From contig NC_063014.1 in assembly GCF_020509005.1 (NCBI RefSeq), positions 5,146,001 through 5,210,000 of the forward strand: 64,000 nucleotides of DNA. The letters are read 5' to 3'. Position numbers and translations under genes: made by a program. Every line of letters starts with the position of its first letter. Within the stretch, counting starts at the first letter, position 1. Source of the stretch: Fulvia fulva (Eukaryota > Ascomycota > Dothideomycetes > Mycosphaerellales > Mycosphaerellaceae). This document shows, piece by piece, positions 7,501 through 43,827 of this stretch. The notes below the pieces were generated by a model. The model did not search any database and was not told the DNA's origin. It was given only the letters and a program-made list of their open reading frames with translations.

Positions 7501-9422
7501 AAGGCTGACTATGATATTAAGGGCTATAACATAAAATAGAAAGCCCTAAAATCTATAGTCCCTAAGCCCGAACTAACTACTAAAGTAGGAGAAGCAATAG
7601 ACCTCTTAGAGAACCTTGCTACTTTTTACTAAGCTTTCTTTATAGCTATACAATCATTAGACAGTTCAATACTATAGGATAGCAAATTCCTAGAAGAAGT
7701 TAAGGAAATGGCCTTTATAGTAACTATAGAAGCTATTATATATAAGTAAGAGGTCCTAATTCCAAAATCCTATAAGGATGCTATAAATAACAAGAAATAG
7801 GGACATCTTTAGAAGGAAGCAATCCAAAAGGAACTAGATGCTCTATAGAGTAACAACACCTAGGAAAATTCTATTCTACTAAAAGGAGCAAATCTAGTTA
7901 TATTAAGATAGGTCTTTAATATTAAGAGAAGTATTAGTAGAGCTATTGAAAAGTTTAAGGCTAGACTAGTTACAAGGGGCTTCTTATAGAAGTTTAGTGT
8001 TGACTTTATAGAGACATTTGTACCTATAGTAAGACAGGACACCCTTAGGGTGTTTATAGCTATTGTATATAAGAAGGATCTTCATCTTTACTAAGTAGAT
8101 ATGAATAATGCATTTATGGAAAGCACCCTCTATAAAGACATCTTTATGTTACTAATACTAGGAGTTAAGCTTCTACTAAACATAGTGTTCAAAATCCTTA
8201 AAAGCTTATATAGACTTAAGCAAGCAGCTAGAGATTGAAATTAACTCTGTGTGTTAAAGCTTAGAGAGATTGGATTCATATAGTCAGAAGTGGATCTATG
8301 CCTACTTATCTATAAGAAGAGGGAGATCATAATCCTTATATATATAGATAACATTCCAATTGCTACACTAAAGTTAATAGATGTTCTCTAGTTTAAAAGA
8401 GAACCTGGTAAGATCTTCAAGATCAAAGATCTAGGTGAACCTAAAAAGATCCTTAGTATAAGAGTTATAAGGGATAGGAAGAGAGGAATCCTAAAACTTA
8501 ACTAAGGACACTTTATTAGGGACAGCCTAGCTAAGATAGGAATAAACTATAAGAAGGCAGCACCTACACACTTACCTATAGATAGCTATAAGGCCCTTAA
8601 ACCTTCAAGCTATATAGATAAGAGGTGTGACAAGGCAGAGTACTAGAGTATTAATAGTACTTAGATATAGCTAGCAATAATCACAAGGCTAGACATTGCT
8701 TTTACCCTAGGAAGGATAAGCTCATTTGTAAGTGACCTATCTACCTACCACATAAAGGCTTTAAATAAGATCACTAGGTACCTAAGATTATACCCTAATC
8801 TAGGACTTTAGTTCTTAAAGTCTAGAAAAGGACACCTTATTAGATACTATAATTCTGATTATATAATAGACAAAGCAGACAGAGTCTTAATCCTTAGGTA
8901 TGTCTTCTTCCTCTATAGGGCACCAGTTTCTTAGATAAGTAAGAAGCAAAAGTCTGTAGTAATATCTATGATAGAGGCTAAATATATAGCTATAAATATA
9001 TATACGAAGTAGTCCCAATTCCTAGCTTCACTACTAAGAGAAATGGATTGTCTAGAGTTAGTAGGAGACTGTTCCTATCAACTAAGAATCACTAGAAACT
9101 AGGAGACTGTATTAAATTTAAGACCAGTCCAATTAAGAGGTAACAATCAAGCTGCCCTTACCCTAGTAAAAGATGTATATATTTATGACAAGTCGAAGCA
9201 CATTAATATTGCCTATAACGCTATTAGGAAACTTTAGTAGAGGAGGCTTATTGCTATTAAGTATACCCTAACCTCTAAGATAGTTATAGACGGGTTTATA
9301 AAACTAAAGACTAGTCTACACTTCTAGAGGTTTATAAGCTAGCTTAACCTGTTATAAAAAGGTCTAAGTACTATTAATAGGAAGTGAGCAGACTATAACC
9401 TCCTATACGAGATAAGTAGGAG
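4561..9422 (+). pseudogene. Copia 1 gag-pol, RIP-inactivated
   Basis: Domains are readable in order despite many stops. After the gag region there is protease-flanking sequence near 5,800-5,880 (VLEDVLLIPKLGVNLV), the GAG-pre-integrase region near 6,080-6,210, and the integrase core and C-terminus near 6,290-6,900, split by the solo LTR after KFWPK. RT follows near 7,900-8,400 with ARLVTRGF, DMNNAFM and LKSLYRLKQAARD. RNase H spans about 8,850-9,300 (EAKYIAI, NNQAALTL). The RT catalytic box reads YIDN at 8341-8352: the second Asp codon changed GAC to AAC, a TpG-to-TpA event, so catalysis would be lost even without the stops. Confidence 0.9.
6659..6842 (+). mobile_element. 184-bp solo LTR of the gypsy C family, un-RIPed
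   Basis: It starts TGTCACGGGCAG and ends GCGCCCTTACA, flanked by the 5-bp duplication TAAAG (6654-6658 and 6843-6847). It is the reverse complement of the gypsy C LTRs at 30574-30757 and 37606-37789 but keeps CpA/TpG where those have TpA. The empty site is seen in copia 2 (around 45,960-45,990, reverse strand), which reads straight through. It therefore inserted, and lost its internal part by LTR-LTR recombination, after the two copia copies separated. Confidence 0.95.
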
Positions 9423-11897: not shown

Positions 11898-11914
11898 GAT
11901 AGATAGATAGATTT
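11895..11914 (-). repeat. LINE 1 3'-terminal (TAGA)n microsatellite
   Basis: ATAGATAGATAGATAGATTT marks the 3' terminus of LINE 1, directly against the target duplication. The same repeat type ends LINE X (39,579-39,597) and LINE 3 (61,455-61,477), so it belongs to the elements. Confidence 0.85.
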
Positions 11915-11999
11915 GTCATTCCCCTATTCTAGGACCCTATCCGGCCTATATAGGTATATATCTATTGTTATATATAAAGAGAAACCCGAATAGGTGAAA

Positions 12000-14900
12000 A
12001 CCCTTCCCGCCCCTAACTTCTCCTTATCTAGATTAGCTTTCCCTCTAAACGTACGTAGTCTATGTCACTACCCCGTTAGCCCCCGCTCCTAGCCGGTCTC
12101 GTCGCGCTACGTCGTATCCTCTCTTCCTATACTACTCCTACTAGGCGGTACTGTTCTAGCTAGCCCTTCTCTAGTATCTAGTTCGTAATGCGCCGTAGGT
12201 CCTTAGCGTTATTAAGAAGTGCCCTAATCGTCCGGTTCCTCGCCTTTACTATCTACTCCCCCCTTCCTAGCGACTACCTCGGACAGACGAGGAGTGCGTG
12301 CCGTACGTTCTAGGAGCGATAGCCGTATAGGCAGCTAGTATTCGTGTATCCTAGAACCTTCCTCTATAATAGGTACCCCTAGAGGCCGATGTGTTCGCTT
12401 CGTAGTTAGGTTACTATACTACTCTATACCCTCGTAAGGCGGTAGTAGATAAGCTTTAGGGGGTGCTTAACCGCGGATTTTGTAGCTAACTATTCCTTAG
12501 GTTATCCCGCTAGCTAAGGGCGTCTACTATGCCCTACAACCTAGTTGTTCTACCTCTCTTTCTATAGTTGCTCTATAAACGATTTCTTACCTTCCTATTA
12601 TGTTGCTAGCTATTCGTCCCTTACCCGGTAGTTCGGCTCGTTTCCGGGTCGAATGCCCCTATACGCTAGTACTAATTCGCGGGCCCTTACGACTATACTA
12701 GCGATGACCTTCTATACTAGGTACTATACCGACTTGCCTAAGTAGGAGGTCCGTAGTCCCTATATATATAGGTCGATCGGCGGTATAGCGGTCTCGTACT
12801 TAAGTATCCTCGTTAGTATCGACTTATATACCCCGGTGACCTTCCTTAGGCATTAGTTTTGGATCTTCGCTAGCGGCGCGACGAGTCCCTTCGATAGGCA
12901 GGCCCTCTTACCTAAGGACTACACTTAGCTACTATAGGTAAGGACTGGCCGTATAATAGCCGTATATAGAAGTCGTAACTGCCGGAAGTCCGCCCCCTAT
13001 ATAGACGTAGTAAGCCTCTAGTATAATACTATATTCTATTTAGCTTTCCGTAATATTGCCTATACGTACTTCCTCTACCGTAGCGCCGGGTCCACCTATA
13101 GTCCGAGGATCCTAAGCTGATTTGTAGGGTTAGTCGTGTGCCCCTATATCTAGATAGAAGCTTATATATTGTGGAACCGTAGCCGGCGCGTAAAGTGTAT
13201 CAGATTGTACTTTTCTAGGGCAAACCGAGCCCCGTGCCTCCTAGCCTAGTCCTCGTAGATCTTATGCTTCTCTTCTAGTAGCCTATAGTTCTCCTTAGTC
13301 GAGGAAGACTACGCTAGGATGTTTATGTCGTCTACGAAGCCGCTCGTAGCGGTGTTCTGGGATTCTAGGGCTAGGAGTAGCGTCGCTATAAAGAAGAGGA
13401 ACAGAATAGGTACTAGCGTTAAGCCTTACGGGATTCTAGTATAGACTACTTAAAATAGGCTTCTGTACTAGCCGACTAGGATCGACGTACTACGGTTTTA
13501 GAGGTAGGACCGTACGAAGTTAACAAGCTACTTAGGGAGTCCTTTCGACCTTAGGATGTAGAGTAGCCGCGGGTATAACACGTAGTCGAAGGCTCCCGAT
13601 ATGTCTAGGCTAAGTAAGGAAGCTACCTTGTCTCTATTCTTATACTAGATAGCCTTTACCTAAGAGGTAATAAGTTCTATCGCGGATAGCGTCGATCGCT
13701 ATAGGCGCGTACCTATCTAGGTGTCCGGGAGTAGGGAGTGTTCCTCTACCGCCTCGGAGAGTCTCGTTATAACTAGCTTCTTAAGCGCCTTCCTAAGAGT
13801 GTTAAGGAGCGCAATTAGGCGGTACAACTTCACCTACGTATAGTCTTCCTTCTACGGCTTACGTAGGACTACTATCGTTAATTGTTTAAAAGCTATCGGG
13901 TAGTATCCGGTCTATAGGTAGGCGTTAAAGATCGCTATAACTACTAGGGCTAGTTGATCTCTATACTTCTTTAGTAGCTCGTTTGGGATCCTATCCGGCC
14001 CCGGGGCTTTCTTCGCCGGCAACTTCCTTAGTATAGCGGCAACTTCTCCCTCGGACACCTCCTATTAGACCGCGATACTAGGGGCTAGGGGAGTAGAGCT
14101 ATTTATGTCGCTTAGATTAGCCTCGACTAGGGGCGGGAAGAACTTGCTAGCTAGTAGACGCGCCTTGGCCTCGGGGTCGCTAACCGGGCCACTAGGCGAT
14201 TATAGCGCTAGGATAGAGAAGGAGGGGCCCTATATAGGGTCCCGTCGGGCCTATTTCGCTAGCTTCCATATCCTCTCTAGCTTGCCGGCGATTTCTTCTA
14301 CTATAGCCCTCTAGCCGACTGCTTTCTCCCTTCGTATTATAGCTTTCTTCTGTTAGTATACCTCCCTATATACGTTCTAGGCCTCCTCGCTATAGCTGCT
14401 CGTCTATACCCGGCGGGCTCTCCTTGCTTCTCTTACTACCGTAGTACACTCCGGCGTCTAGTATAGTTTAGAATATATTATCAGTTAGGTAAGCGGAACG
14501 TAAAGTAAGGTCGCTTTTCTTATTTCGTCTATTAACCCCTAGACTACTTCGTCTATCTCGTCTTTACTATTATATTACTACTACGCGATCTAGACTAGCC
14601 TCTTAGAGTTATCGAGGTACGCCTAGATGTTAGCCTAGTAGGCCTTTCCCTAGTTTAGCTTAGGGGTTCTCGCTAGTATACGTTATATCTATGTCGTAAT
14701 AGAGGTCCTGACTAGTATGTGGTCTGACGACGCCTCGAGTTCATATTCGATCCTATATTAGGTTACCGTATAGTAGTAGCTATCTAAGATCTAGGAGAGG
14801 TCGATCGTGCCTTAGAGTCCCCCTCTCTTCTAGGTGCCTAGGTCCTTCGGGGTATTAAGGGCAATTACGTTACTCGCTATTAAGTCGAGTACTTCGTCGG

Positions 14901-15420
14901 CTATAGGGTACGGCTATATAAGGCTTTCCTAGGAAGGGTGGTATATGTTAAAGTCTCCTACTACGATGTGGTACCCTTGTCTCTTAAGCGCACTATCTAG
15001 GTGTCTATAGACCCCTAGGTCGCGGCTAGACCTCGAGGCTAGCGGTTGTATATATAGGTTGTATATCTAGGTACTACCTACGTAGAGGGAGGTAATATCG
15101 CCCCCGCCTTCTTCGTCTACGTAGTACACTACCTCCTAGTCGGATTCTAGTATGTCCTTGCTGACATAGAAGCACGTACGGGGTCTACCGTCGCCTCGTA
15201 GGTATGTCGTATAGCCTAGTAACTTATAGGTCGTTAGTCTCTTATAGTACGGGTTAATCTATAGCTCCTAGGTTATAAGGACGTAGTAGACGCGCGGGTC
15301 CGCCTCGTATAGGAAATGGTTCTAGACTATATCCTTACTATAGTTGACGTTATACTAGATAATGCTAAGCGTGTCGAGGCTAGTTATCGGTATCGACAAT
15401 CATTTCCTCTATATCGTCCT
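12000..15420 (-). pseudogene. LINE 1 ORF2: endonuclease-RT, RIP-inactivated
   Basis: Reading on the reverse strand, the N-terminal apurinic-type endonuclease is visible near 14,800-15,400 (GDFNIYHPS near 14,950). It is followed by RT blocks near 13,000-14,000: LLNTLRKALKKLV, SLLSLDISGAFDYV, and a degenerate form of the motif that reads GIPQGSTLSPILF in LINE X. The catalytic FVDD is intact at 13327-13338 (FVDDINILA). Near 12,310 a C-terminal zinc motif of the CxC...HxxxxC type remains (RHALLVCP). The relatives are LINE 2 (56179-61068) and the fragment at 2878-3848. Confidence 0.85.
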
Positions 15421-15469
15421 ATGTCCTACTACCCTATACGTCCTAGCCTACGCCTATTAGCTATATACT

Positions 15470-16500
15470 AAAGGGGAGCCGGGCCTAGTTAGATTCCCTC
15501 GCCGTAGCTAGTAGAGTACGTGGCCTCCCGTACGCCCTAGTTTACGTATCCTTTATATCGTTCTCGGCCCTAGGGCGCTTATACCCGACCGCCGCTAGTT
15601 AGTTCCGGTATAGGCTAGCCTTACGGTCGCCGTAGAATCTTAGGGCGACGGTTCTGTTTGTAATTGCCTTGTTTTTCGCTAGTTTCCGCTATAGGCATTC
15701 CGTACTATACGATAGGTAGTACCCCGGACAGTTCGCGTACCGTCTCGTAGTTAATATATAGTCCCTAGACATATAGTCTCCTATATAGTTCGAGTAGGCC
15801 TACTTGTTTATATACGTGTAGGTTTGGTGTCTATACTGTTAGCATTTGAAGCATTAGAGGACACGAAAGGATAAGGAGTGCTTTTCTACTGTCTTAAGGC
15901 TATATTGCTAGACCAGGCCTTGTTCTATCGCTAGATCCGCCGCTTTCGCGTCTTATAGCTATACTATTAGCGCCGAGGCCTTCTTGCCTTCTGGCCATTT
16001 CCTATAGAGCCAAGTCGCCTTCTAGATTAGAGAGTTAAGAGTGACCGGGTTGTCCTCTTAGAGAGCGCGTAGGTGACCCTAGTTAGTTAGGTCAAACTCC
16101 TTAGGCATGTCGTGGACTAGGATCGTGAATTGTTTCGTTAAGACCTTCGCTAATACCGTAACCTTAGATGCCTACTATAGCTATGCCTCTAGGTGCCTCC
16201 TAGTAGTAGTAGAGCTAGTATAGATCTATAGAGTGCCGTTAGACTATTAGTTCACTACGACCACCCCTAGTTAGTTAATTCGTTAGGCGAGCTCCTTGTT
16301 CGATAGCTTCGTAACTTCGGCCTAGTCTTCCTTTGCTATAATACGGATCGTAACTATATCGTGCGTTAGGCGGGGGCCTAGTATCGATGCCGCGACCGAT
16401 GCCTAGCTATAGGGGTGTTGATTTCGGGTGGCCTTACTAATCGCCTAGGACGTCGTCCTTATTTCTTATTGCCCTCGGTAATACGACAGTATAAGCGCCG
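15470..16500 (-). pseudogene. LINE 1 ORF1: gag-like protein with zinc knuckles, degenerate
   Basis: On the reverse strand near 15,840-15,870 the translation gives CFKC followed by a histidine at the correct spacing (CFKC-x-x-Y-x-H). A second and third knuckle are suggested at about 15,780-15,800 and 15,690-15,730 (YANCPGYYLSYSTEC). Several Cys and His codons have been altered by RIP. ORF1 proteins of this LINE group bind element RNA and form the RNP. The start and exact limits cannot be fixed because of stops. Confidence 0.65.
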
Positions 16501-16890
16501 TGCGTAGCTAAGTGATCATTACCTAAAGAGACCGGTAAGGGAGCTAATCGTTAGTTTCTATACTTTTTACGTCCTCTATAAGTTGCTACTAGTTGTCTTA
16601 GGGGGGCTTCGCCTATAGGGCCGTAGGCGCCGTTAGTACCGTAGCCTAGGCTACTATTACCTAGGAGTTGCCTAATGTAGCTAGGCACCTCCGCGGCGTT
16701 TAGAGCTGAAGAAATAGGGTGAAGAGAGCTTTAAGCTATCTAGATTAAATAAGGTAGAACTCCCTTAGTCCTAGAGGTAGTGGCCTGCTTTATATATCGT
16801 TAGAATGGCCTTAATAAGAGCTTTCGAATGTGTCTTGTTTTGGCGTAGAGATCGATGTCGTAAGGATATAATAGGTTCCCTCCTAATATA

Positions 16891-24127: not shown

Positions 24128-24140
24128 GTTATGAGCCCGA
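24127..24140 (+). promoter_or_regulatory. Copia C primer-binding site (initiator tRNA-Met anticodon arm)
   Basis: AGTTATGAGCCCGA follows the LTR. Its complement contains CGGGCTCATAAC, an anticodon stem-loop with CAT, as in fungal initiator tRNA-Met. It matches the un-RIPed form of the site in copia 1 and copia 2, although the LTRs are unrelated. This suggests half-tRNA priming. Confidence 0.65.
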
Positions 24141-24290
24141 TTAGCGCTCACTAACATTCGCTGCGACAAGGAAGCCCCAAAGCAGAGTTTGCATCGTCAC
24201 AGCACTACTGCTACAACCAGTGCAGTAGTATCCCCTAGGCCTAGTGAACCCGCGTGGAACTTTCACCAGCCTACAACCCATTTTGCAGTT

Positions 24291-27200
24291 ATGGCCACTA
24301 CCGAGACGCCGGTGACTACCGGTGCCCTACCTCAGGGTACCGTGGTTCTGAAGAGCCATGACCAATGGGACAAGTTTGACCGTCAGCTAGAGCTCTACGC
24401 AGAGTCTTTGAATGTCTGGAAGTATGTGGATCCTCACCAACTGAGTAACGAGCCAACAGAGCCTACTCACTTGACGTTTGAGGAAATCCAACAAGCGTAC
24501 ACGGCAGGAGACGCTACATCAAGAGATCTCATCAAGCTACGACAAACAGACGCAGACCGAAGGCAACGGATGTACGACATCTTTGCTGCTGCGCGATCAA
24601 AGCTCATTACCTACCTCATCCGTACGACGACAGAGCTAGGGCAAGAGCTAATGCACGGCCAGAACACCCTTAGAGCGAAATACCAGGCTCTCAAGGATCA
24701 GTATGGTCCAGACGATATGCTGCGTAAGCGGCAGCTCACGCTTGAGCTGTCTAGGCTTCAGAAGGCTAGCGCACGCAGAATCGATGACTGGTGCTCAGAC
24801 TGGTTAGTTTTGCAGACCAAGATGCTTAAGTGCAACCACGCCGAGTACGACGACCTTAGTAGACACTTCCTACTTGCTATTCAGCAGAAGCAGGCTCCAG
24901 CCTACGGTGCTTCTCTATACAACGAGTGGAAGCGTGACAAAATGTCACTACAAAAGCTTACTGAGCGTTACCTCGAATGGATACGCGACACCGCACCAGC
25001 AACAACCAACGGTCGATCAGTCTTCGCAACCTTCTCCGGAGAAACCTCAGCAGAAGCAGAGGATGAAACAGCACCCACAGGTGCTGGTCAAAAGGAGGGT
25101 GACCGTGGCAGCAGCCGTGGTGACAACCGTGGCAACAGCCGCGGTGACAAGGGTCGTGGCAGCAGCCGCGGCGACAAGAACAAAGACAAGGACAACAACA
25201 GGCCAAGCGGCTGCTGGAACATCACCGGCGAGCCCAAGGACACCTGTCACAAGGGCCTGTTCTCATGCGATGTGATCAACCCCGACAAGCGCCCAGCAAA
25301 GGATCAGCGCTCAGAGCAGTGGAAGAAGTACTGGAAAAACTTCATCAACTACTGCTTGAGCGACGACGGCGAGCGTCTGCTTGGCGTGTTGAATCGCAAC
25401 AATCGCAAGGACCAGGAACGTGACAAGGCTATTGCTGATGCGAAGAAGGCATCACCAAGCGATAAGGGCTTTGTTGGCCTTACTGTTCTTTCTAGCTCAA
25501 TTAGCAAGTTGAGCGTCAACTTCAGGGATTGCTGGGTGTATGATAACTGTTCAGACACTCATGTGATCAATCATCATGACCAGGAGGGTGTAGAGTTCAT
25601 TGCAGAGCGCCTCACCACCTCAGAAATCCAGGCTGGAACAACCACCTTTCCAATTGCAGCGTTAGGGCGCGTTCATATGTCAATTGGGGGCCATTCATTC
25701 ACCTTGCTGGATGTGGCTTACTGCCCAGGCTTTCATGTGAACGTCATCTCTCACACACGCATGGAAAGAGCCGGACTCTGGTGGCACGGACGCAGCAATT
25801 CAATGTGGCACAACGACACTAAATTGATGGACCTACACCGCCCTACTGGTACAATCCCTTTCTTCAAGGTGGTCACACCACCTAAGTCACCCATCATTTA
25901 CCAATGGCCTACAAAAGAGGGCCTAGTACTGCCGAAGGTCACTGAAAAGATGCGCAACGCGCACTTCATCAGCACTATTGGCAGGGGTGCAAACATCGGC
26001 GATGAACCTGCCAACAGCGCAGCATCTCCAACTGCTCAAGAGGATGGTGATCGCACCGTTCTCGCAGTCATGAACAGCACTGGGGGCACTCAAGGTGCAG
26101 CTACGTCCAGCAGGACCCCCATCAAACACCGAAAGCTCTCTGGCCGCCAGTGGCATCAAATCTTTGGTCACATTGGCGCTGAACGCATCAAGCAGTTGCC
26201 GCTCAGAGTTGAGGGGGTGATCATTAACGATGGTCCAAGCGCACCCCTCACTGCACATTGCAGAGCATGTGGGCTTAGCAAAGCTCACAAGGTGCACAAT
26301 CGGTCTCAGCCCATCAGGGTGATGACCCCATACGGCCACATGGCCATGGACTTGGCAGAATTCACTGTCGCCTACAACGGTGACAGGTACCTCGTCCACT
26401 TCTACGATCTGGATACCCATGGACACTTCCAGTTCACCATCAAGAACAGGGATCAGCAATCGGTGTTGGCTTGCTTCAACAGCCTGCTGAGCTTCATCAA
26501 CTTCATTGGTCGCAGGTTCGTATGCTTCTACAGCGACAACGAGCCCGCCATTGGGAAGGTGTTTCGCTCAGTCATTAACAACAACAAGATTGAATGGCAC
26601 GCAACCGCGGAATACGCGCCTGCGCAGGACCCAGCAGAAAGAGCTGGAGCTCTGATCATCACCATGAGCAGAACCATTCGCATCCACGCACGATTGCCGG
26701 AAAAGCTTTGGCCAGAATGCACTGCAGCAGCGGTGTACATCCTCTGGCGATCCCCTATCCAGTCAAAGGGCTGGAAGACCCCATTCGAATTGGCAACAGG
26801 ACGAATTCCGAACGTGGGTCACATGGTGGTGTATGGCTCCCTTGCATACGTGTTCATCCATGGACCAAATCAGCCTGGCAAGAGCGAGAAACTCCAAGAG
26901 AGAGCGCTCATAGGCTACCTTGTGGGATACGACTCCACTAACATCTACCGCGTATGGGACCCATCAAAAGATAGGGTTATGCGAGTCAAGGACGTCCTCT
27001 TCGATGAGACCACGTTCTATGACCCATCACGCCTGACAGCAGGGTACACGACCCCTGTCGAGAACATCGCAACAGCGGAACCGGCTGAAGAGCCTGAACA
27101 ATACTACGACCTGTATGTCGCTCATCACGAGCAAGACACAGCACAGGCCGAGGGGGTGGAAGAACAGGCTCAGCAGCCGCACACCCAACAACCTCGAGAC

Positions 27201-29444
27201 GCCCACCAAAAGCTCCTTGGGCAAGAACCACACTGGCCGCAACACCGCGAGTCAGCAACATATAACCAAAAAGACCGGCAAATCGAGCACGTAACAGATC
27301 ACGTGACTCAAGACAACACACAGCAGTCAGCACCCAACACCACTGACTACTACGATACCCTGCAGCAGCAGATAATGGATGCCCTCACCGCAGAAGACCG
27401 TGAGGAGATCATGGGCAACACGGACCCTGATCGCGAGCCATATCCATTCACATTCACACCACCAGAAGACGCGTTAACACACAACGCGTCCAACACACCA
27501 CTCTTCCCCCTAGAGCCAGAGCTCTACACACCAGAGGAGTCCAACTATGCAGTCACAGAGAATGGAAAGCGCCTACGAACGGCCTACTTCCACCATGCAC
27601 TGCACCAGATCATGGTCGCTAATGTAATCATCGGCCAGATGTCCGGCATACGACCCAGAACACGCGCCTATCGCGACAAGAGCGATCGAAGCCCTACACG
27701 AAGAGGCAACAGCCCTCTAAGGCGTGTCAACACCACTACCTCTATGCACCGCGATGACCTTCCGCCCGAACCTTCTAACTACCGAGCCGCTATGAAACAC
27801 CGCTTCTGCCAACAGTGGATCGAAGCTATGGCCAAGGAGTTTGCCAAAGCCCTGGCAACAGGCACATTCAGATGGGCAACAAAGGAAGAGAAGGATCAGG
27901 ATGCTCAGCAAGAGGAGGGACTTCAGCCACTACTGCCGCTCAAGTGGGTGTACAAATACAAACTGGACGAGCACGGCATGCTGAAGAGCTTCAAGGCTAG
28001 GCTATGCGCAAGAGGCGATTTGCAAGGAACACACTTAGACACATACGCCGCCACACTGCCAGCAAGCATGTTCCGCCTCTGCTGTGCTATGGCCGCGAGC
28101 TTCGACCTAGAAGCCGAACAATTCGATGTTGTCAACGCCTTCCTGAACTCGGACCTGCCATACACCATGTATCTGCAACCACCTCCTGGAATCGACAGGC
28201 CATCCCATGGACACGCCCTCAAGCTGGTCAAGGCCCTCTACGGTCTGAAGGAGTCCCCTTTATTGTGGTACAACTCCCTAACCGAGACGCTGGCCTCCCT
28301 TGGACTAGTACCCCTGTCGGACTCCGAATGCATCTACCATGACAACAAGGTTATGTTCTTCTTTTACGTTGACGACCTGGTTATGCTCTACCACCGCAAG
28401 CACAAGGCCCATGCTGCCAACATCAAGCAGCGGCTGCTTGCCAAGTACGAGATGCACGAGCTCGGTGATCTCTCCTGGTTCCTAGGAATCAAGGTTACGC
28501 GCGACAGAAACAAGCGCTTGCTGTGGCTCTCTCAAGAAGACTACATTGAGAAGCTAGCCGCCAAATTCAGCATATCCACGAATGCACGCAAAACGACAGT
28601 GCCAGTAGATCAACACCTTGATTGGACCGTTCCAGAGGGTCATCAACCCACCTCTATCGCCATCCTTGCGTACCAACAACGTATAGGATCCCTCAACTTC
28701 GCCGCCACACACACGCGGCCTGACATCGCCTTTTCCTTGTCCATGCTATCGCAGTATCTGACCAAGCCAACTGAGACACACCTCAAGCTTGCAGATCAGT
28801 GCTTGCGCTATCTCCTGGAGACCAAGAACCTCTGCCTTGTATATGGCGCCAGCAAACACATCACTGGCCTTCACAGCCAACCAGAGCACCTCGGTAGCAA
28901 CCACGAGTTCTTTGGAGCATCGGACGCGTCCTACGGCATGAATAATGACAGGACCAGCTCAAATGGCTGGGTCTTCATGCTGTTCGGTGGACCAGTGGAT
29001 TATAAGGCATCTAAACAAATCACTGTCACCAAGTCCTCAACAGAGGCTGAGCTACTCGGGCTTTCGCAAGCCGCCTCAGAGCTCATACAGTGGGAACGAG
29101 TCTTCGCTGAGATACACCTTCAGTTCAATCAGCGCACCCACTTGTACTGCGACAACACGCAGACCATCCGCCTTGTCAACCAACAAGGGCAAAAGCTTGA
29201 CACGAAGCTACGCCACGTTGACATCCACCACCACTGGCTCCGACAGCGAGACCAGCGCGGAGACATTGAGATCAAGTATCTCAGCACCAACGACATGCCT
29301 GCAGACGGGCTGACCAAGCTGCTTCCACCACAGAAGCACAAGCACTTCGTCAAGCTGCTCAATATGGCTGAGGAAGGCGTGGACCCACGCACCTCAGTGC
29401 CCTCTGCAGCCGCATCAGGAGGTAACGGGCCAACAGACGCCTGA
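24291..29444 (+). CDS. Copia C gag-pol polyprotein (1717 aa, intact)
   Basis: Single frame from the first ATG (24291, MATTETPV); the open frame extends upstream to 24189 but begins with TTG there. In order: gag, about residues 20-260; an Arg/Gly/Asp/Ser-rich basic stretch near 270-305 with repeated RGSSRGD-like units, where copia elements usually have a CCHC knuckle; protease, with DNCSDTH at about 418-424; the GAG-pre-integrase HHCC zinc region (WHQIFGH...CRACG) near 625-665; integrase core with acidic residues near 687 (MDLAEF), 749 (SDNE) and 783 (PAERAG); RT with RLCARGD, FDVVNAFLN, LVKALYGLKESP and YVDD at about 1359-1362; RNase H with SDASYG, SSTEAELLGL and a final ADGLTKLL. The domain order is that of Ty1/copia. 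No stop or frameshift. Confidence 0.96.
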   Translation: MATTETPVTTGALPQGTVVLKSHDQWDKFDRQLELYAESLNVWKYVDPHQLSNEPTEPTHLTFEEIQQAYTAGDATSRDLIKLRQTDADRRQRMYDIFAAARSKLITYLIRTTTELGQELMHGQNTLRAKYQALKDQYGPDDMLRKRQLTLELSRLQKASARRIDDWCSDWLVLQTKMLKCNHAEYDDLSRHFLLAIQQKQAPAYGASLYNEWKRDKMSLQKLTERYLEWIRDTAPATTNGRSVFATFSGETSAEAEDETAPTGAGQKEGDRGSSRGDNRGNSRGDKGRGSSRGDKNKDKDNNRPSGCWNITGEPKDTCHKGLFSCDVINPDKRPAKDQRSEQWKKYWKNFINYCLSDDGERLLGVLNRNNRKDQERDKAIADAKKASPSDKGFVGLTVLSSSISKLSVNFRDCWVYDNCSDTHVINHHDQEGVEFIAERLTTSEIQAGTTTFPIAALGRVHMSIGGHSFTLLDVAYCPGFHVNVISHTRMERAGLWWHGRSNSMWHNDTKLMDLHRPTGTIPFFKVVTPPKSPIIYQWPTKEGLVLPKVTEKMRNAHFISTIGRGANIGDEPANSAASPTAQEDGDRTVLAVMNSTGGTQGAATSSRTPIKHRKLSGRQWHQIFGHIGAERIKQLPLRVEGVIINDGPSAPLTAHCRACGLSKAHKVHNRSQPIRVMTPYGHMAMDLAEFTVAYNGDRYLVHFYDLDTHGHFQFTIKNRDQQSVLACFNSLLSFINFIGRRFVCFYSDNEPAIGKVFRSVINNNKIEWHATAEYAPAQDPAERAGALIITMSRTIRIHARLPEKLWPECTAAAVYILWRSPIQSKGWKTPFELATGRIPNVGHMVVYGSLAYVFIHGPNQPGKSEKLQERALIGYLVGYDSTNIYRVWDPSKDRVMRVKDVLFDETTFYDPSRLTAGYTTPVENIATAEPAEEPEQYYDLYVAHHEQDTAQAEGVEEQAQQPHTQQPRDAHQKLLGQEPHWPQHRESATYNQKDRQIEHVTDHVTQDNTQQSAPNTTDYYDTLQQQIMDALTAEDREEIMGNTDPDREPYPFTFTPPEDALTHNASNTPLFPLEPELYTPEESNYAVTENGKRLRTAYFHHALHQIMVANVIIGQMSGIRPRTRAYRDKSDRSPTRRGNSPLRRVNTTTSMHRDDLPPEPSNYRAAMKHRFCQQWIEAMAKEFAKALATGTFRWATKEEKDQDAQQEEGLQPLLPLKWVYKYKLDEHGMLKSFKARLCARGDLQGTHLDTYAATLPASMFRLCCAMAASFDLEAEQFDVVNAFLNSDLPYTMYLQPPPGIDRPSHGHALKLVKALYGLKESPLLWYNSLTETLASLGLVPLSDSECIYHDNKVMFFFYVDDLVMLYHRKHKAHAANIKQRLLAKYEMHELGDLSWFLGIKVTRDRNKRLLWLSQEDYIEKLAAKFSISTNARKTTVPVDQHLDWTVPEGHQPTSIAILAYQQRIGSLNFAATHTRPDIAFSLSMLSQYLTKPTETHLKLADQCLRYLLETKNLCLVYGASKHITGLHSQPEHLGSNHEFFGASDASYGMNNDRTSSNGWVFMLFGGPVDYKASKQITVTKSSTEAELLGLSQAASELIQWERVFAEIHLQFNQRTHLYCDNTQTIRLVNQQGQKLDTKLRHVDIHHHWLRQRDQRGDIEIKYLSTNDMPADGLTKLLPPQKHKHFVKLLNMAEEGVDPRTSVPSAAASGGNGPTDA

Positions 29445-39142: not shown

Positions 39143-39582
39143 CTCCTACTCATCTCGTATAGGAGGTTACAGTCTGCTCACTTCCTATTAATAGTACTTA
39201 GACCTTTTTATAACAGGTTAAGCTAGCTTATAAACCTCTAGAAGTGTGGACTAGTCTTTGGTTTTATAAACCCGTCTATAACTATCTTAGAGGTTAGGGT
39301 ATACTTAATAGCAATAAGCCTCCTCTACCAAAGTTTCCTAATAGCGTTATAGGCAATATTAATGTGCTTCGACTTGTCATAAATATATACATCTTTTACT
39401 AGGGTAAGGGCAGCTTGATTGTTACCTCTTAATTGGACTGGTCTTAAATTTAATACAGTCTCCTAGTTTCTAGTGATTCTTAGTTGATAGGAACAGTCTC
39501 CTACTAACTCTAGACAATCCATTTCTCTTAGTAGTGAAGCTAGGAATTGGGACTGCTTCGTATATATATTTATAGCTATATA
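39143..39582 (-). pseudogene. Copia 2 pol, 3' segment (end of RNase H)
   Basis: Matches copia 1 positions about 8,990-9,422 in reverse, including the RNase H end and the purine-rich tract before the 3' LTR. It stops at the 14-bp duplication TTTATAGCTATATA (39569-39582) made by LINE X. Confidence 0.88.
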
Positions 39583-39597
39583 GATAGATAGATAGAT
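39579..39597 (-). repeat. LINE X 3'-terminal (TAGA)n microsatellite
   Basis: TATAGATAGATAGATAGAT at the LINE 3' boundary, abutting the target duplication. It matches the termini of LINE 1 and LINE 3. Confidence 0.85.
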
Positions 39598-39786
39598 TAT
39601 TCATTCGCCTGTTTTAGTGCCCTATGGCCTATGCAGGTCTCTCGCTATTTAGGTCTATTTGTGTAGGTAGGAAACCCGATTAACGGATGAAAACCTCCTC
39701 GTCTTTGCCCTCCTCGTTCTTTCCTGTCTTGTCCTTTCGTTCTCCTTCCTTCAGGGTACGCTAGTGTCATGGTTGTTACCCTATGA

Positions 39787-42783
39787 CTACCTTGCCCGTA
39801 ACCCTGGTGATGTCCTCCTCTCGATTCCCTTTCTCCCTTCTGTTTCCCCGGCTCTTCTCTCTCTCTCCCTCCTCTCTATCCACCTTTCCGTTTCTACTGC
39901 TAGGGAGAATTGCTCTAGGTAGTCCTCGTTAAGGATCCATCTTGTCACTCTCCTTATATCTTGTCTGTCCTGGATGATGGCCTGGTATTGCCTGTCTCTT
40001 GCCTTCGCCCTCCACTGGCTTCTCCCTTTTACCCACTTAGTACAGTTCAGCACCATGTGCTCCGGGTTTTGGGATAGGTAGCCACAGGGGCAACGTTTGG
40101 AATCGTATCCTGGGACTCTTCTTTGGTGCAAGTATGCTCTCAGCCCAATGTGCTCAGAGCGAATCTGGATAGCTATGCTTGCTTCCGCCCTCTTCAGGTC
40201 TTTATAGATAAGGTAGTTATACCTCCCGAAGGTCCTGGCCGCTGGTGGGGCTCCTGGCCTCACCGGTTTTTGGTTCCAACGCGTTTCCCATAGGTGACCT
40301 GCGATCCTTTCTGCTTGGCTTTGCTTCTTTTTCCCTTTGTCCCCTGTGTTAGCTTGCTCCCTCAGAGCTTCTCTCTGTTCAAGGGCTGCTAGGATTTCCT
40401 GTGATGTTTTTAGGTCTGCTTCCTTCTGTGGGATCATGTGTGGCCGGTTGGGTCTTCTCCTCCTCTCCCACTGGGTTCTTATCCTTTGAGTAGCTGCTTG
40501 GATGGTTCCCTGGGCTGGGTATGCTGATGTCTTCTCTGCGTATTGACACCTCATGCCCTGGAGGTACTCCCTGATGGGGGCTGTACCTGATTCCATTTCC
40601 ATTGTCCTGTGAGGGGTTGACTTGTATGCCCCTAGTACTCTCTTTAGGCAGGCTGCCTGCGCTCTGTTGAGGGGGTCCTCAATTCTCTTCGGGATGTGTT
40701 TTTCCGCTGCCCAAATTGCTGCTCCATATAGCATTGCGGGCTTGACAATGGCCTTGTACATGGTCTGGGCCTTTGTGAAGGTCGCCCCCCAGGTTGACGC
40801 AGTGAGTCTCTCGATTGATTGTCTGTTGGTGTCCGCTCTCGCTTGCGCCTTCTTCACTTGTGGTCCCCAGCTGAGTTTCGGGTCTAGCCATATCCCAAGG
40901 ACTCTGAGTTCCCTTGTAGGATGGGTCTCGAACCCCTGGATTTTTACTGGTGCTGCCAAGTTGTGTTTTGTCTTTGCCTTGCTAAAATGGATAAGTTGGT
41001 ACTTGTCCGGTGCGAATTTTGCCCCATGCTCTCTTGCCCACTTTTCGCATTGTCTATGTCTCTCCTCTAGGAGTGCGCAGTTTTCCTCTGTGGACCCCGA
41101 CCACGCTAGGATATTTGTGTCATCCACGAACCCCGATGCTGAGGTGTTTGCTGTTTCTAGGAGTGGGGTCAGGTCGGCCATAAAGAGGAGGAACAGAATT
41201 GGGGAGAGTGTAGAGCCCTGTGGGATGCCCGTGTTCGCAATTGGGGTCTGCGGGGCTTTGAAGGACCCTAGGAGGATCTGGGTTGTTCTGTCCTTAAGGA
41301 ATGACTGCACAAAGTGTACTATCCAGGCTGGGATGCTTTTCATTCTGAGGATGTGTAGGAGCCTTGCGTGGGACACATTGTCGAAAGCCCCTGATATGTC
41401 TAGTGAAAGCAGTGAGGCTACCTTGTTGTTGCCATAGTGCCAGATGTGTCTGATTTGCTCTGTGATCAGTTCGACTGCTGTGAGGGTAGATCTCTTTTGT
41501 CTCCCCCCCATTTGCGTTGCCGGGAGGAGGTTGTGTTCTTCTACTATTCCGGTGAGCCTTATAGCCACGACCTTCTCTAGGAGCTTCCCTAGTGTGTTCA
41601 GCAACGCAATTGGTCTGTATGACTTCAACTTGGTATAGTCTTCCTTTTGGGGTTTCCTTAGGACGCAAGTCAGTGATTGCCTAAAGGCCTTTGGGCAATA
41701 CCCCTGCTTCATGCACTGGGTAAAGATTGGCGCAAGCACTGGAGTGATAAGGCTGCTGCTAGCTTTTAGGTAACAGTTAGGGATCTTGTCTGGGCCTGGG
41801 GCTTTGTTACCCTTCAGTTTCTTGATAATGTTTCCGATCTCTATAGCAGACACTTGCCAGTTAGCCTCCCTTGGCGGAGGAATGTGTGTTCCTGGGATGT
41901 TGCTTAGGTCTGCCTCTACCTGAGTCCCGAAGAAGTGGTCTGCGAATGCTTTCGCTTTCCCTATCGGAGTGGTTTGCGTTTCCCCGTCTTGGTCCTGTAT
42001 TGAGGGAAACTGGGGCGGGGAGTTTCGTTCCTCGTCTGGTTTCCTGGCCCATTCTGCTAGTCTCCAGATTTGTTCCGGGTGTTCTGTGATCATCCCTACG
42101 GTTGACCTCCACTCCTGCGTCTTGTCTCTTCTGATCTGCGCCTTCTTTGCTTTGCACGCGTTGTTATAGGCTTCCCAGTTTGCTTGGGTGCGTCGCTGCT
42201 CCCATCTCCTTCTTGCTTTCCTTGCCTCCTTGACTTTGGCTGTGCACTCTAGTGTCCAGTATGGCTTCTGGTATAGCGACCATCTCTTCTCAGGTATATG
42301 GGCCTGGGCTGCCCTTTGCATAGCTTCTATCAGCTGCTCCACTGCTTGGTCAATCCCCTCCGTTGTGTGTATGTTGTCAATGTTCACCTGTTCTAGTTCG
42401 CCTTCTAGCCGCTGCTGTACTAGTGTCCACTCGGCCTGCTTCCAGCAGAGCCTCCTCTCAGGTTCCCTCTCCTCCTCAACTGTGAGTTGGATGTCGGTTT
42501 GGATTGGATAGTGGTCTGATGAGGACTCTAGTTGGTCATTGACTGTGCAGCTTTCTACCCGTCGTGTTAAGGCGTGGGACATGAAGCATAGGTCTAGCGT
42601 GCTAGAACTGTTGTTTCTAGCCCAAGTTTCTGTTCCCTTTGGCGTGATCAAGTCCATTTGGGCTGTTTCCATCTGACCAATGAGCCTCCCTGCTAAGAAG
42701 TGGTGTGCTGGGGTGAAGTCCGATCCCCACTTTGGCAAGGAAGGAATCGTATTTAGCAAGCTAGCTACGAGATAAGGTGACAA
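39787..42783 (-). CDS. LINE X ORF2: endonuclease remnant, reverse transcriptase, CCHC motif
   Basis: Open frame of 998 codons, listed from a TTG at 42783. The first in-frame ATG is at 42672 (METAQMDL), and LINE similarity starts near 42,740 (PKWGSDFTPAHHF). Only the C-terminal endonuclease part remains, with SSSTLDL and SSDHYPI (the conserved Asp-His near the end of the nuclease fold). The RT spans about residues 310-590: KLKGNKAPGPDKIPN, SLLSLDISGAFDNV, GIPQGSTLSPILF and catalytic FVDD at 552-555. A C-terminal zinc motif CPCGYLSQNPEHMVLNC starts near residue 898. Without the N-terminal half of the endonuclease the product probably could not nick DNA, although the RT looks intact. It is the un-RIPed counterpart of LINE 3. 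Confidence 0.9.
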   Translation of the reverse strand: MSPYLVASLLNTIPSLPKWGSDFTPAHHFLAGRLIGQMETAQMDLITPKGTETWARNNSSSTLDLCFMSHALTRRVESCTVNDQLESSSDHYPIQTDIQLTVEEEREPERRLCWKQAEWTLVQQRLEGELEQVNIDNIHTTEGIDQAVEQLIEAMQRAAQAHIPEKRWSLYQKPYWTLECTAKVKEARKARRRWEQRRTQANWEAYNNACKAKKAQIRRDKTQEWRSTVGMITEHPEQIWRLAEWARKPDEERNSPPQFPSIQDQDGETQTTPIGKAKAFADHFFGTQVEADLSNIPGTHIPPPREANWQVSAIEIGNIIKKLKGNKAPGPDKIPNCYLKASSSLITPVLAPIFTQCMKQGYCPKAFRQSLTCVLRKPQKEDYTKLKSYRPIALLNTLGKLLEKVVAIRLTGIVEEHNLLPATQMGGRQKRSTLTAVELITEQIRHIWHYGNNKVASLLSLDISGAFDNVSHARLLHILRMKSIPAWIVHFVQSFLKDRTTQILLGSFKAPQTPIANTGIPQGSTLSPILFLLFMADLTPLLETANTSASGFVDDTNILAWSGSTEENCALLEERHRQCEKWAREHGAKFAPDKYQLIHFSKAKTKHNLAAPVKIQGFETHPTRELRVLGIWLDPKLSWGPQVKKAQARADTNRQSIERLTASTWGATFTKAQTMYKAIVKPAMLYGAAIWAAEKHIPKRIEDPLNRAQAACLKRVLGAYKSTPHRTMEMESGTAPIREYLQGMRCQYAEKTSAYPAQGTIQAATQRIRTQWERRRRPNRPHMIPQKEADLKTSQEILAALEQREALREQANTGDKGKKKQSQAERIAGHLWETRWNQKPVRPGAPPAARTFGRYNYLIYKDLKRAEASIAIQIRSEHIGLRAYLHQRRVPGYDSKRCPCGYLSQNPEHMVLNCTKWVKGRSQWRAKARDRQYQAIIQDRQDIRRVTRWILNEDYLEQFSLAVETERWIERRERERRAGETEGRKGIERRTSPGLRAR

Positions 42784-43141
42784 GTCTTAACCGCGCTTTC
42801 CCACTCATCTAGCACCACCGTGTAGCCTCGTTTCGAGAGGTTAGCCCGGAGCAAAAGCTTCCCTCTACGCCCTCCCTCCCTGTTTGCTCCTTAAGCCAAT
42901 ATCCACCTCCATAGGCCTAAGCCCTTTAGTGCTCTCTATTGACCGACATGCGCATCCGTCCTCTCGGGCTGTACAGACAGTGTCAGCCGTCGCTGCCAGT
43001 GTACACCACGCCCCAGGTTTTGACGCCCTTCGCGTTACCGCAGCCTATCTCTAGAAAGCGGCCGTCCATGCCTCGCAGGTTTGCTCGGGGCACACACCAC
43101 GCCGGGCAGCGTACTCCTTGCGTTTCCACCTACTAACCAAT

Positions 43142-43302
43142 ATGAAGTTCCTTATCACCCTGCCCTCGATCCTCCCCGATCACAGAACTAATCCACTTGC
43201 ATTGTACGTCTTTTCCCCGTCCTAACAGCCGTCTTTTCCTTGCTTAGGCTATCGTCTTTTCCTCGTCGCAATCTACCATGTCAGACTAGGTGCGTTGTGT
43301 AG
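43142..43302 (+). other. Possible captured gene start with a short intron (speculative)
   Basis: An ATG at 43142 opens MKFLITLPSIL, a lysine followed by a hydrophobic run like a secretion signal. A fungal-type intron could lie at 43204-43247 (GTACGT, internal CTAAC, terminal TTAG). Splicing would give a 38-residue product ending at 43302. It is antisense to LINE X. It may be a fragment of a host transcript or coincidence. Confidence 0.2.
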
Positions 43303-43427
43303 CGGGACAGGCAGTGCCTCAGGCAAAACCCTCGTTCCCATACCGGGTGTTCAACAGGCCCTTACAGGCTTCGTCGCGTGTCCACCTACCCACCGCATTG
43401 CCCGCTGGCAAACACCAGATTGTTTCG

Positions 43428-43510
43428 TAGTCCGCTCGACGCCGTTACATAGTCCGCTCAGTTGTTGTTCTGTAGTCCGCTCGTCCAATGTTCGTCGCTT
43501 AGCCCGCTCG
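43428..43510. repeat. Degenerate tandem motif TAGTCCGCTCG, four copies
   Basis: Copies at 43428-43438, 43450-43460 (last base A), 43473-43483 and 43500-43510 (AGCCC variant), spaced 22, 23 and 27 bp. Only the 11-bp core is conserved; the spacers differ. Protein-binding sites or a decayed minisatellite are possible. Confidence 0.6.
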
Positions 43511-43827
43511 GTTTGCGGTCTCCGGAGGTGAAAATTCTGCACTCATACCAGAGGTGTCCTGTCGAGCGTATAGGCCACGGTTCCGCGCCCTTCTTACACG
43601 TAGAAAGAAGAGGGACTCGCTCCCGACACGAGTACACGCTCGTCGGATGGTTTTCATACCCGTTTTGCTGGTAGTCCTCTGTTCGCCGCGGCTTCGCCTA
43701 CGCTACGCGCCCGTCGCGCCTACGACGCTCCAGCGTGAGAATACTTGGCTCTCTCGTAGCTAGACGAGAGGTTCGTAGCCGACACCACGTACAGGTGATT
43801 CTCGTCGTCGACCTTTATAGCTATATA

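Follow-up and report, generated by a model that had tools for sequence, protein, structure and literature searches.

The stretch of DNA analysed here, called the window, comprises 64,000 nucleotides of Fulvia fulva contig NC_063014.1 (positions 5,146,001 to 5,210,000). At 39,583-43,813 of the window lies a single minus-strand insertion, in which a 5′-truncated long interspersed nuclear element (LINE) is joined to a sequence of 1,078 nt, hereafter the module. The insertion, its target-site duplication and the repeat used to define its boundaries are as follows:

39,569-39,582, no strand: target-site duplication, left copy, 14 bp, TTTATAGCTATATA; empty site at 8,983-8,996
39,583-42,735, minus strand: 5′-truncated LINE with (ATCT)n tail, 3′ untranslated region (UTR), open frame, reverse transcriptase and partial endonuclease
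42,736-43,813, minus strand: non-coding 5′ module of 1,078 nt, 5′ GGTCGACG ... CCTTCCTTG 3′, about 500 copies
43,814-43,827, no strand: target-site duplication, right copy, 14 bp
8,697-9,296, minus strand: another host-repeat copy, which holds the empty site at 8,983-8,996

Boundaries and state of the window insertion

The two flanks of the insertion, aligned separately to the host repeat at 8,697-9,296, showed 99.4% and 99.3% identity and overlapped on it by exactly the 14 bp, thus defining an uninterrupted target at 8,983-8,996. A first-pass annotation of this DNA had proposed that one 14-bp duplication surrounds the LINE together with its 5′ part and that the empty site is preserved elsewhere in the window. 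Both proposals are borne out, since TTTATAGCTATATA is found at the two ends as well as at the empty site. The opposite case it had considered, an older insertion with a duplication of its own next to the junction, did not appear.

The (ATCT)n tail of the LINE is at 39,583. The open frame encodes a reverse transcriptase domain together with an endonuclease domain whose beginning is missing; in UniRef the frame matches a Passalora fulva protein with 100% identity across 84% of its length. The annotation was right that the endonuclease begins mid-domain and that the 5′ part is unrelated (0 further matches elsewhere in the window), yet its junction near 42,740 had to be corrected to 42,735/42,736 and its size for the 5′ part, 1,074 bp, to 1,078 nt. 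The first retained LINE base is C at 42,735, and this base after the module is best read as LINE sequence. The insertion had also been described as entirely free of repeat-induced point mutation (RIP). This holds for the LINE, with a TpA/ApT index of 0.94 (flanks 2.03 and 1.70). For the module, at 1.71 and with (CpA+TpG)/(ApC+GpT) of 0.78, the index by itself is not decisive, and it is the many near-identical copies described below that speak against RIP damage in the window copy.

Module copies and their junctions across the genome

The genome searched comprises 67,169,167 bases in 14 contigs. The last 25 bases at the module 3′ end (module end plus the following C) gave 518 matches with at most 2 mismatches and the first 25 bases at the 5′ end gave 496, with 0 matches for a reversed-pattern control. 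Junctions were read in 147 copies, namely 54 loci of L001-L060 (six having been dropped as duplicates, four fetched twice and two from a tandem set), 6 of L061-L066, 58 of L067-L124 and 29 of L126-L154. The same module 3′ end adjoins a LINE in 143 of them, although the LINE identity at L086, L088, L095, L152 and L153 comes from weak translated matches or overlap with other LINE loci. In the other 4 (L022, L062, L087 and L137) an outer module is joined to a second one at a point inside the latter. The first-pass annotation had suggested a search for LINE copies with this module at different junctions; such copies were found, and no free-standing copy was present among the 147 copies read at the junction.

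The donor points fall at 84 sites, ranging from LINE 5′ UTRs to ORF2 residue 1041 (P0003 numbering). Single linkage at 90% identity sorts the donors into 13 groups, of which the largest have 60, 44, 12 and 11 loci; this count is rough, because linkage requires the pieces to overlap. At the other side of the module, its 5′ end was complete in 60 of the 60 loci covering it. The unbiased subset of these is the 24 loci of L031-L060, which were chosen by the module 3′ end only, as L001-L030 were chosen by full-length module match and L061-L066 by the module 5′ end. Duplications of 13-16 bp at both ends, enclosing both parts, were seen in five copies (L010, L015, L019, L057 and the window copy), most fetched loci not spanning both insertion ends. 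A 9-nt end match at L035 was discounted as a chance agreement.

The sequence upstream of the junction is visible in another copy of the donor for 76 of the 84 sites. The base after ...CCTTG is the donor's own at 75 of these 76, including 4 with T and 1 with G, so the module is best taken as ending ...CCTTG. The donor base preceding the first kept base is a pyrimidine at all 76 sites (background 0.447, p 3e-27), purine-pyrimidine precedes the first kept base at 69 (background 0.237, p 2e-35), and the exact purine-pyrimidine-C motif (R-Y-C) is found at 65. Ascertainment accounts for part of the preference for C at the first kept position, since one search pattern ended in C; in the sets not picked by C it was present in 29 of 30 (L001-L030) and 28 of 29 (L126-L154). 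As the purine-pyrimidine lies upstream of the copied part, it is not accounted for by simple microhomology. We considered and discarded an acceptor RNA with CCA at its end, CCA occurring at 24 of the 84 sites, for the most part as a consequence of C in second position. When the 5′ truncation points of 12 module-free LINEs were examined for the same motif, no usable duplication was obtained, a 10-nt match at L157 being dropped as chance.

The module itself occurs in several forms. The best-scoring 40 full-length copies, the only ones scored, were all 100% identical after rounding, and there are older copies with a divergence of about 3-13%, their changes being mostly G-to-A and C-to-T. We distinguished variants A, C (569G, 733G, 895C), D (109C, 111A, 314G, 569G) and B (537A). 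The latter may partly be a RIP product and was given no weight, because it is a single RIP-type G-to-A change that gathers old copies. Each of the variants A, C and D includes copies that have 0-1 private changes. Tagging is imperfect: L026 has one C mark only, and L034 has the D marks without the D tag.

These variants bear on whether the joins arose separately. Grouping at no more than 4 mismatches in 24 bases showed that 24 of the 84 junction sites were used again, and 18 of these 24 carry at least two of the classes C, D and other; most joins therefore look separate, and recurring junctions look like hot spots. Over all copies, 65 of 167 same-site pairs had a common class, where 64.1-64.5 were expected by permutation (p 0.44-0.47). 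At L022 the outer module lacks the C marks and the inner one carries the C tag, which implies two different module RNAs in one insertion.

No coding capacity was apparent in the module, the longest sense ATG frame having 52 residues and no ATG frame on either strand exceeding 62. Its fold as a whole is weaker than the mean of 40 shuffles (z +1.7), with z of 0.0 and +0.4 for its ends, and no ribozyme was among its Rfam matches up to E 5. A viroid-like or ribozyme-bearing RNA is therefore unsupported, there being neither a strong rod-like fold nor a known ribozyme. Exact patterns of 20-22 bases from the module had no match in collections of viral contigs and genome contigs, neither of them fungal, and blastn gave none in a plasmid collection, also not fungal. 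Within the module, internal repeats lie at window positions 43,414-43,504 and 43,174-43,264, made of GAGCGGACTA-like units 22-24 nt apart and of GGAAAAGACG-like units, and its end regions (positions 51-62 and 1042-1053) show a perfect 12-nt complementarity.

LINEs with and without the module were also compared for length. Two LINE 3′-end patterns had 1,335 and 290 genome matches. From these, 40 chromosome 1 LINE ends without an exact module tail upstream were sampled (15 from the top of one list, plus 25 of 28 from the other after removal of 3 with a module). ORF1 sequence was found 3.95-4.45 kb upstream of the LINE end in 33 of the 40. Old modules were present at L203, among these 33, and at L201, among the other 7. 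Thus 32 of 38 module-free LINEs were long (mostly over 4 kb and reaching ORF1) versus 26 of 143 with a module (Fisher p 5e-14), in a small sample from one chromosome and with yardsticks and family mixes that differ between the two sets. This contrast between mostly long module-free LINEs and mostly short module-bearing ones suggests that jumping rescues most stalled cDNAs and that cDNA ending at the 5′ end of an RNA is preferred for integration. A module-free LINE also lies within the window and was used for comparison only:

11,898-16,876, minus strand: near-complete LINE of about 4.98 kb, without module, duplication TCCCTCCTAATATA

A few other features of the loci deserve mention. TATATA is frequent near the insertion in the 5′ flanks at L001-L060 and at window position 43,814, and the duplications start with (C)TATATA-like sequence, which would suit a target preference of the endonuclease. 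At L083, L086, L088, L152 and L153 the module stands before or inside the LINE 5′ UTR, and these loci may represent elements that are nearly complete but have borrowed their 5′ end. L053-L055, at about 8,826,000-8,835,400 of C1, are three tandem copies of one chimera, spaced about 4.67 kb and sharing their junction, and represent a local duplication rather than new insertions.

Proposed template jumping and the possible source of the module RNA

Template jumping very probably gave rise to the insertion in the window, as one of about 500 chimeric LINE copies formed in this way. In the mechanism that we propose, the reverse transcriptases of several LINE groups would start copying at the LINE 3′ end and halt between a pyrimidine and, usually, a C. 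The halted enzyme would then jump onto the 3′ end (...CCUUG) of a free non-coding RNA of 1,078 nt, which in the model spans GGUCGACG to ...CCUUG, and read it through to the 5′ end, at which point the cDNA would be joined to the target. What can be read from sequence in favour of this are the fixed module ends, the many donor sites, the donor motif and the single duplication around both parts in five copies. From these we infer an acceptor that would be a discrete RNA with the 3′ end ...CCUUG. Integration would be favoured once the cDNA reaches a true RNA 5′ end, whether the LINE's own or that of the module. The earlier suggestion of a template switch with a recurrent partner RNA is thereby supported, now by 147 copies with many junctions.

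Where the module RNA comes from is a question on which our judgement is more divided. The C tag had 40 genome matches and the D tag 31, and all 71 were joined to a LINE or a module, none being solo. In addition, variants A, C and D, each with copies of 0-1 private changes, seem to have several sources active together. Together these observations favour the chimeric copies as the source of the RNA. Perhaps, then, the RNA is supplied by the chimeric copies themselves, which would make the module a non-autonomous parasite that spreads through template jumps, a possibility for which we see the chances as about equal either way. A wider formulation, tentative and in our judgement slightly short of an even chance, is that the module may represent a new class of non-autonomous retroelement. 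It would act as a landing RNA for stalled LINE reverse transcriptases rather than as a mimic of the LINE 3′ end, chimeric loci would remake the free RNA with its precise 3′ end, and integration would preferentially be completed at a true RNA 5′ end, so that truncated LINEs persist mainly when capped by a module.

Several points weigh against these views. A chimeric locus would need some way of making a precise module 3′ end. The copies read are 147 of 518, and a solo source gene may exist among the roughly 370 outside this set. Moreover, 6 of the 38 module-free LINEs may be truncated without a module, some of them being interrupted by other repeats. The second point also lends weight to a host origin of the acceptor, in which the same jump mechanism would use a host non-coding RNA from one or a few ordinary genes lying where the genome is unassembled, collapsed or unread, leaving the chimeras as dead-end pseudogenes. 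We lean away from this explanation, while regarding it as a serious possibility. In fact, neither 18S nor 5.8S rRNA was found in the genome searched, and the available part of the Race 5 Cladosporium fulvum paper places the ribosomal DNA on chromosome 4 as a collapsed locus (PMC9453070), so that a fast-evolving spacer RNA would be beyond direct test. The partner RNA in Magnaporthe, WEIRD, is likewise called a probable housekeeping RNA in the portion of PMC2104539 at hand. Yet the 71 chimeric tag matches out of 71 stand against a host gene, and the variants with nearly unchanged copies suit several simultaneously active sources. As for the pre-rRNA 5′ spacer, the complementarity of U3 to the module was no better than in 60 shuffles, which speaks against it as the identity of the module.

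The remaining explanations replace the jump itself or limit how often it took place. That fewer chimeras were formed and then spread as whole units is improbable, with 84 sites in 147 copies, at least two variant classes at 18 of the 24 reused sites and no excess of sharing when all copies are taken together. Nonetheless, one junction site has 6 C copies of 9, and the C and D copies alone share their variant in 31 of 49 same-site pairs where 24.2 were expected (p 0.05). Some chimeras may thus have been copied whole, and such spread may add some copies. A still poorer case can be made for the module as the normal 5′ end of one LINE family, its copies arising by internal deletion, which had been named beforehand as the finding that would overturn the chimera. 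The few junctions within LINE 5′ UTRs (L083, L086, L088, L152 and L153) would suit it, whereas the same module stands on at least 4 well-filled LINE groups and at 84 sites, and near-complete LINEs without it are seen both in the window LINE at 11,898-16,876 and in the 32 of 38 sampled LINEs that reach ORF1. Least credible of all is splicing of LINE transcripts before reverse transcription, a module exon being joined to internal LINE sites. The module side of the junction is indeed fixed like a splice donor, but none of the 76 sites has AG ahead of the donor part, purine-pyrimidine or other bases being found there, and several LINE groups as well as module-to-module joins are involved.

Relation to known systems

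The LINEs of the window are regarded here as Tad1, an assignment taken from PMC9453070, the available text of which attributes 16.3% of the Cladosporium fulvum Race 5 genome to the Tad1 LINE family. The closest known system is MINE, reported from one fungus, Magnaporthe, with 31 copies and with an RNA part, WEIRD, that is possibly housekeeping and whose gene had not been found, according to the portion of PMC2104539 at hand, on which this comparison is based. In both systems the 5′ side corresponds to an entire non-coding RNA of about 1.1 kb and the 3′ side is a 5′-truncated LINE (MGL in MINE), and both have one duplication (of the 10-20 bp class in MINE, 13-16 bp in five copies here), many junctions with recurring sites, double jumps and no solo copy reported. 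They also share a similar R-Y-C donor motif, seen in 15 of the 18 Magnaporthe donor triplets in Table 3 of that paper. The motif found here is looser than GCC*A/U, the motif of MINE, and the base following it is mostly C, unlike the A/U there. Our system differs in its about 500 copies versus 31 MINEs, and in having several LINE donor groups, module-to-module jumps, module variants and the length contrast. The module system thus appears to work like MINE and to display most of the MINE features tested, the module being a putative RNA copy. WEIRD measures 1,113 nt (PMC2104539) and the module 1,078 nt, and the two published 20-base primers, the only WEIRD sequence compared, match the module no better than shuffles do. 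Independence of the module from Magnaporthe WEIRD is tentatively favoured.

Mammalian chimeras of U6 snRNA and LINE-1, and other LINE-1 chimeras, likewise have a full RNA copy 5′ of a truncated LINE and are ascribed to template switching in the accessible text of PMC13174262 and PMC2104539. Their partners are known small RNAs and mRNAs, whereas here one RNA of about 1.1 kb without an Rfam match dominates the copies read. In addition, the mammalian switch sites are called random in the latter source, in contrast to the motif present here. The literature searched, including what was available of PMC9453070 and PMC10823647, gave no description of this system in Cladosporium fulvum. Repeat annotation may have split the module or absorbed it into LINE consensus sequences.

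Short interspersed nuclear elements (SINEs) are non-coding, non-autonomous, high in copy number and mobilised by LINEs, and so, it appears, is the module. Copying of SINEs begins at their own 3′ end, in many cases thanks to its likeness to the LINE 3′ end. The module differs in both respects, its 3′ end CCTTCCTTG having no tail and being unlike the (ATCT)n end of the LINE and its position being 5′ of a LINE or of a second module in all 147 copies read. Copying from its own, LINE-like 3′ end is described for Mg-SINE in the accessible portion of PMC2104539.

The presence of about 500 copies in a distant fungus makes statistics possible on the choice of jump sites, on host RNA versus parasite and on the long module-free LINEs. 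If the module is indeed a parasite, this would add to the ways in which non-coding RNAs can multiply within genomes. Finally, the window contains a second young element, with an open frame of 1,769 residues at 24,135-29,444 and low RIP indices.

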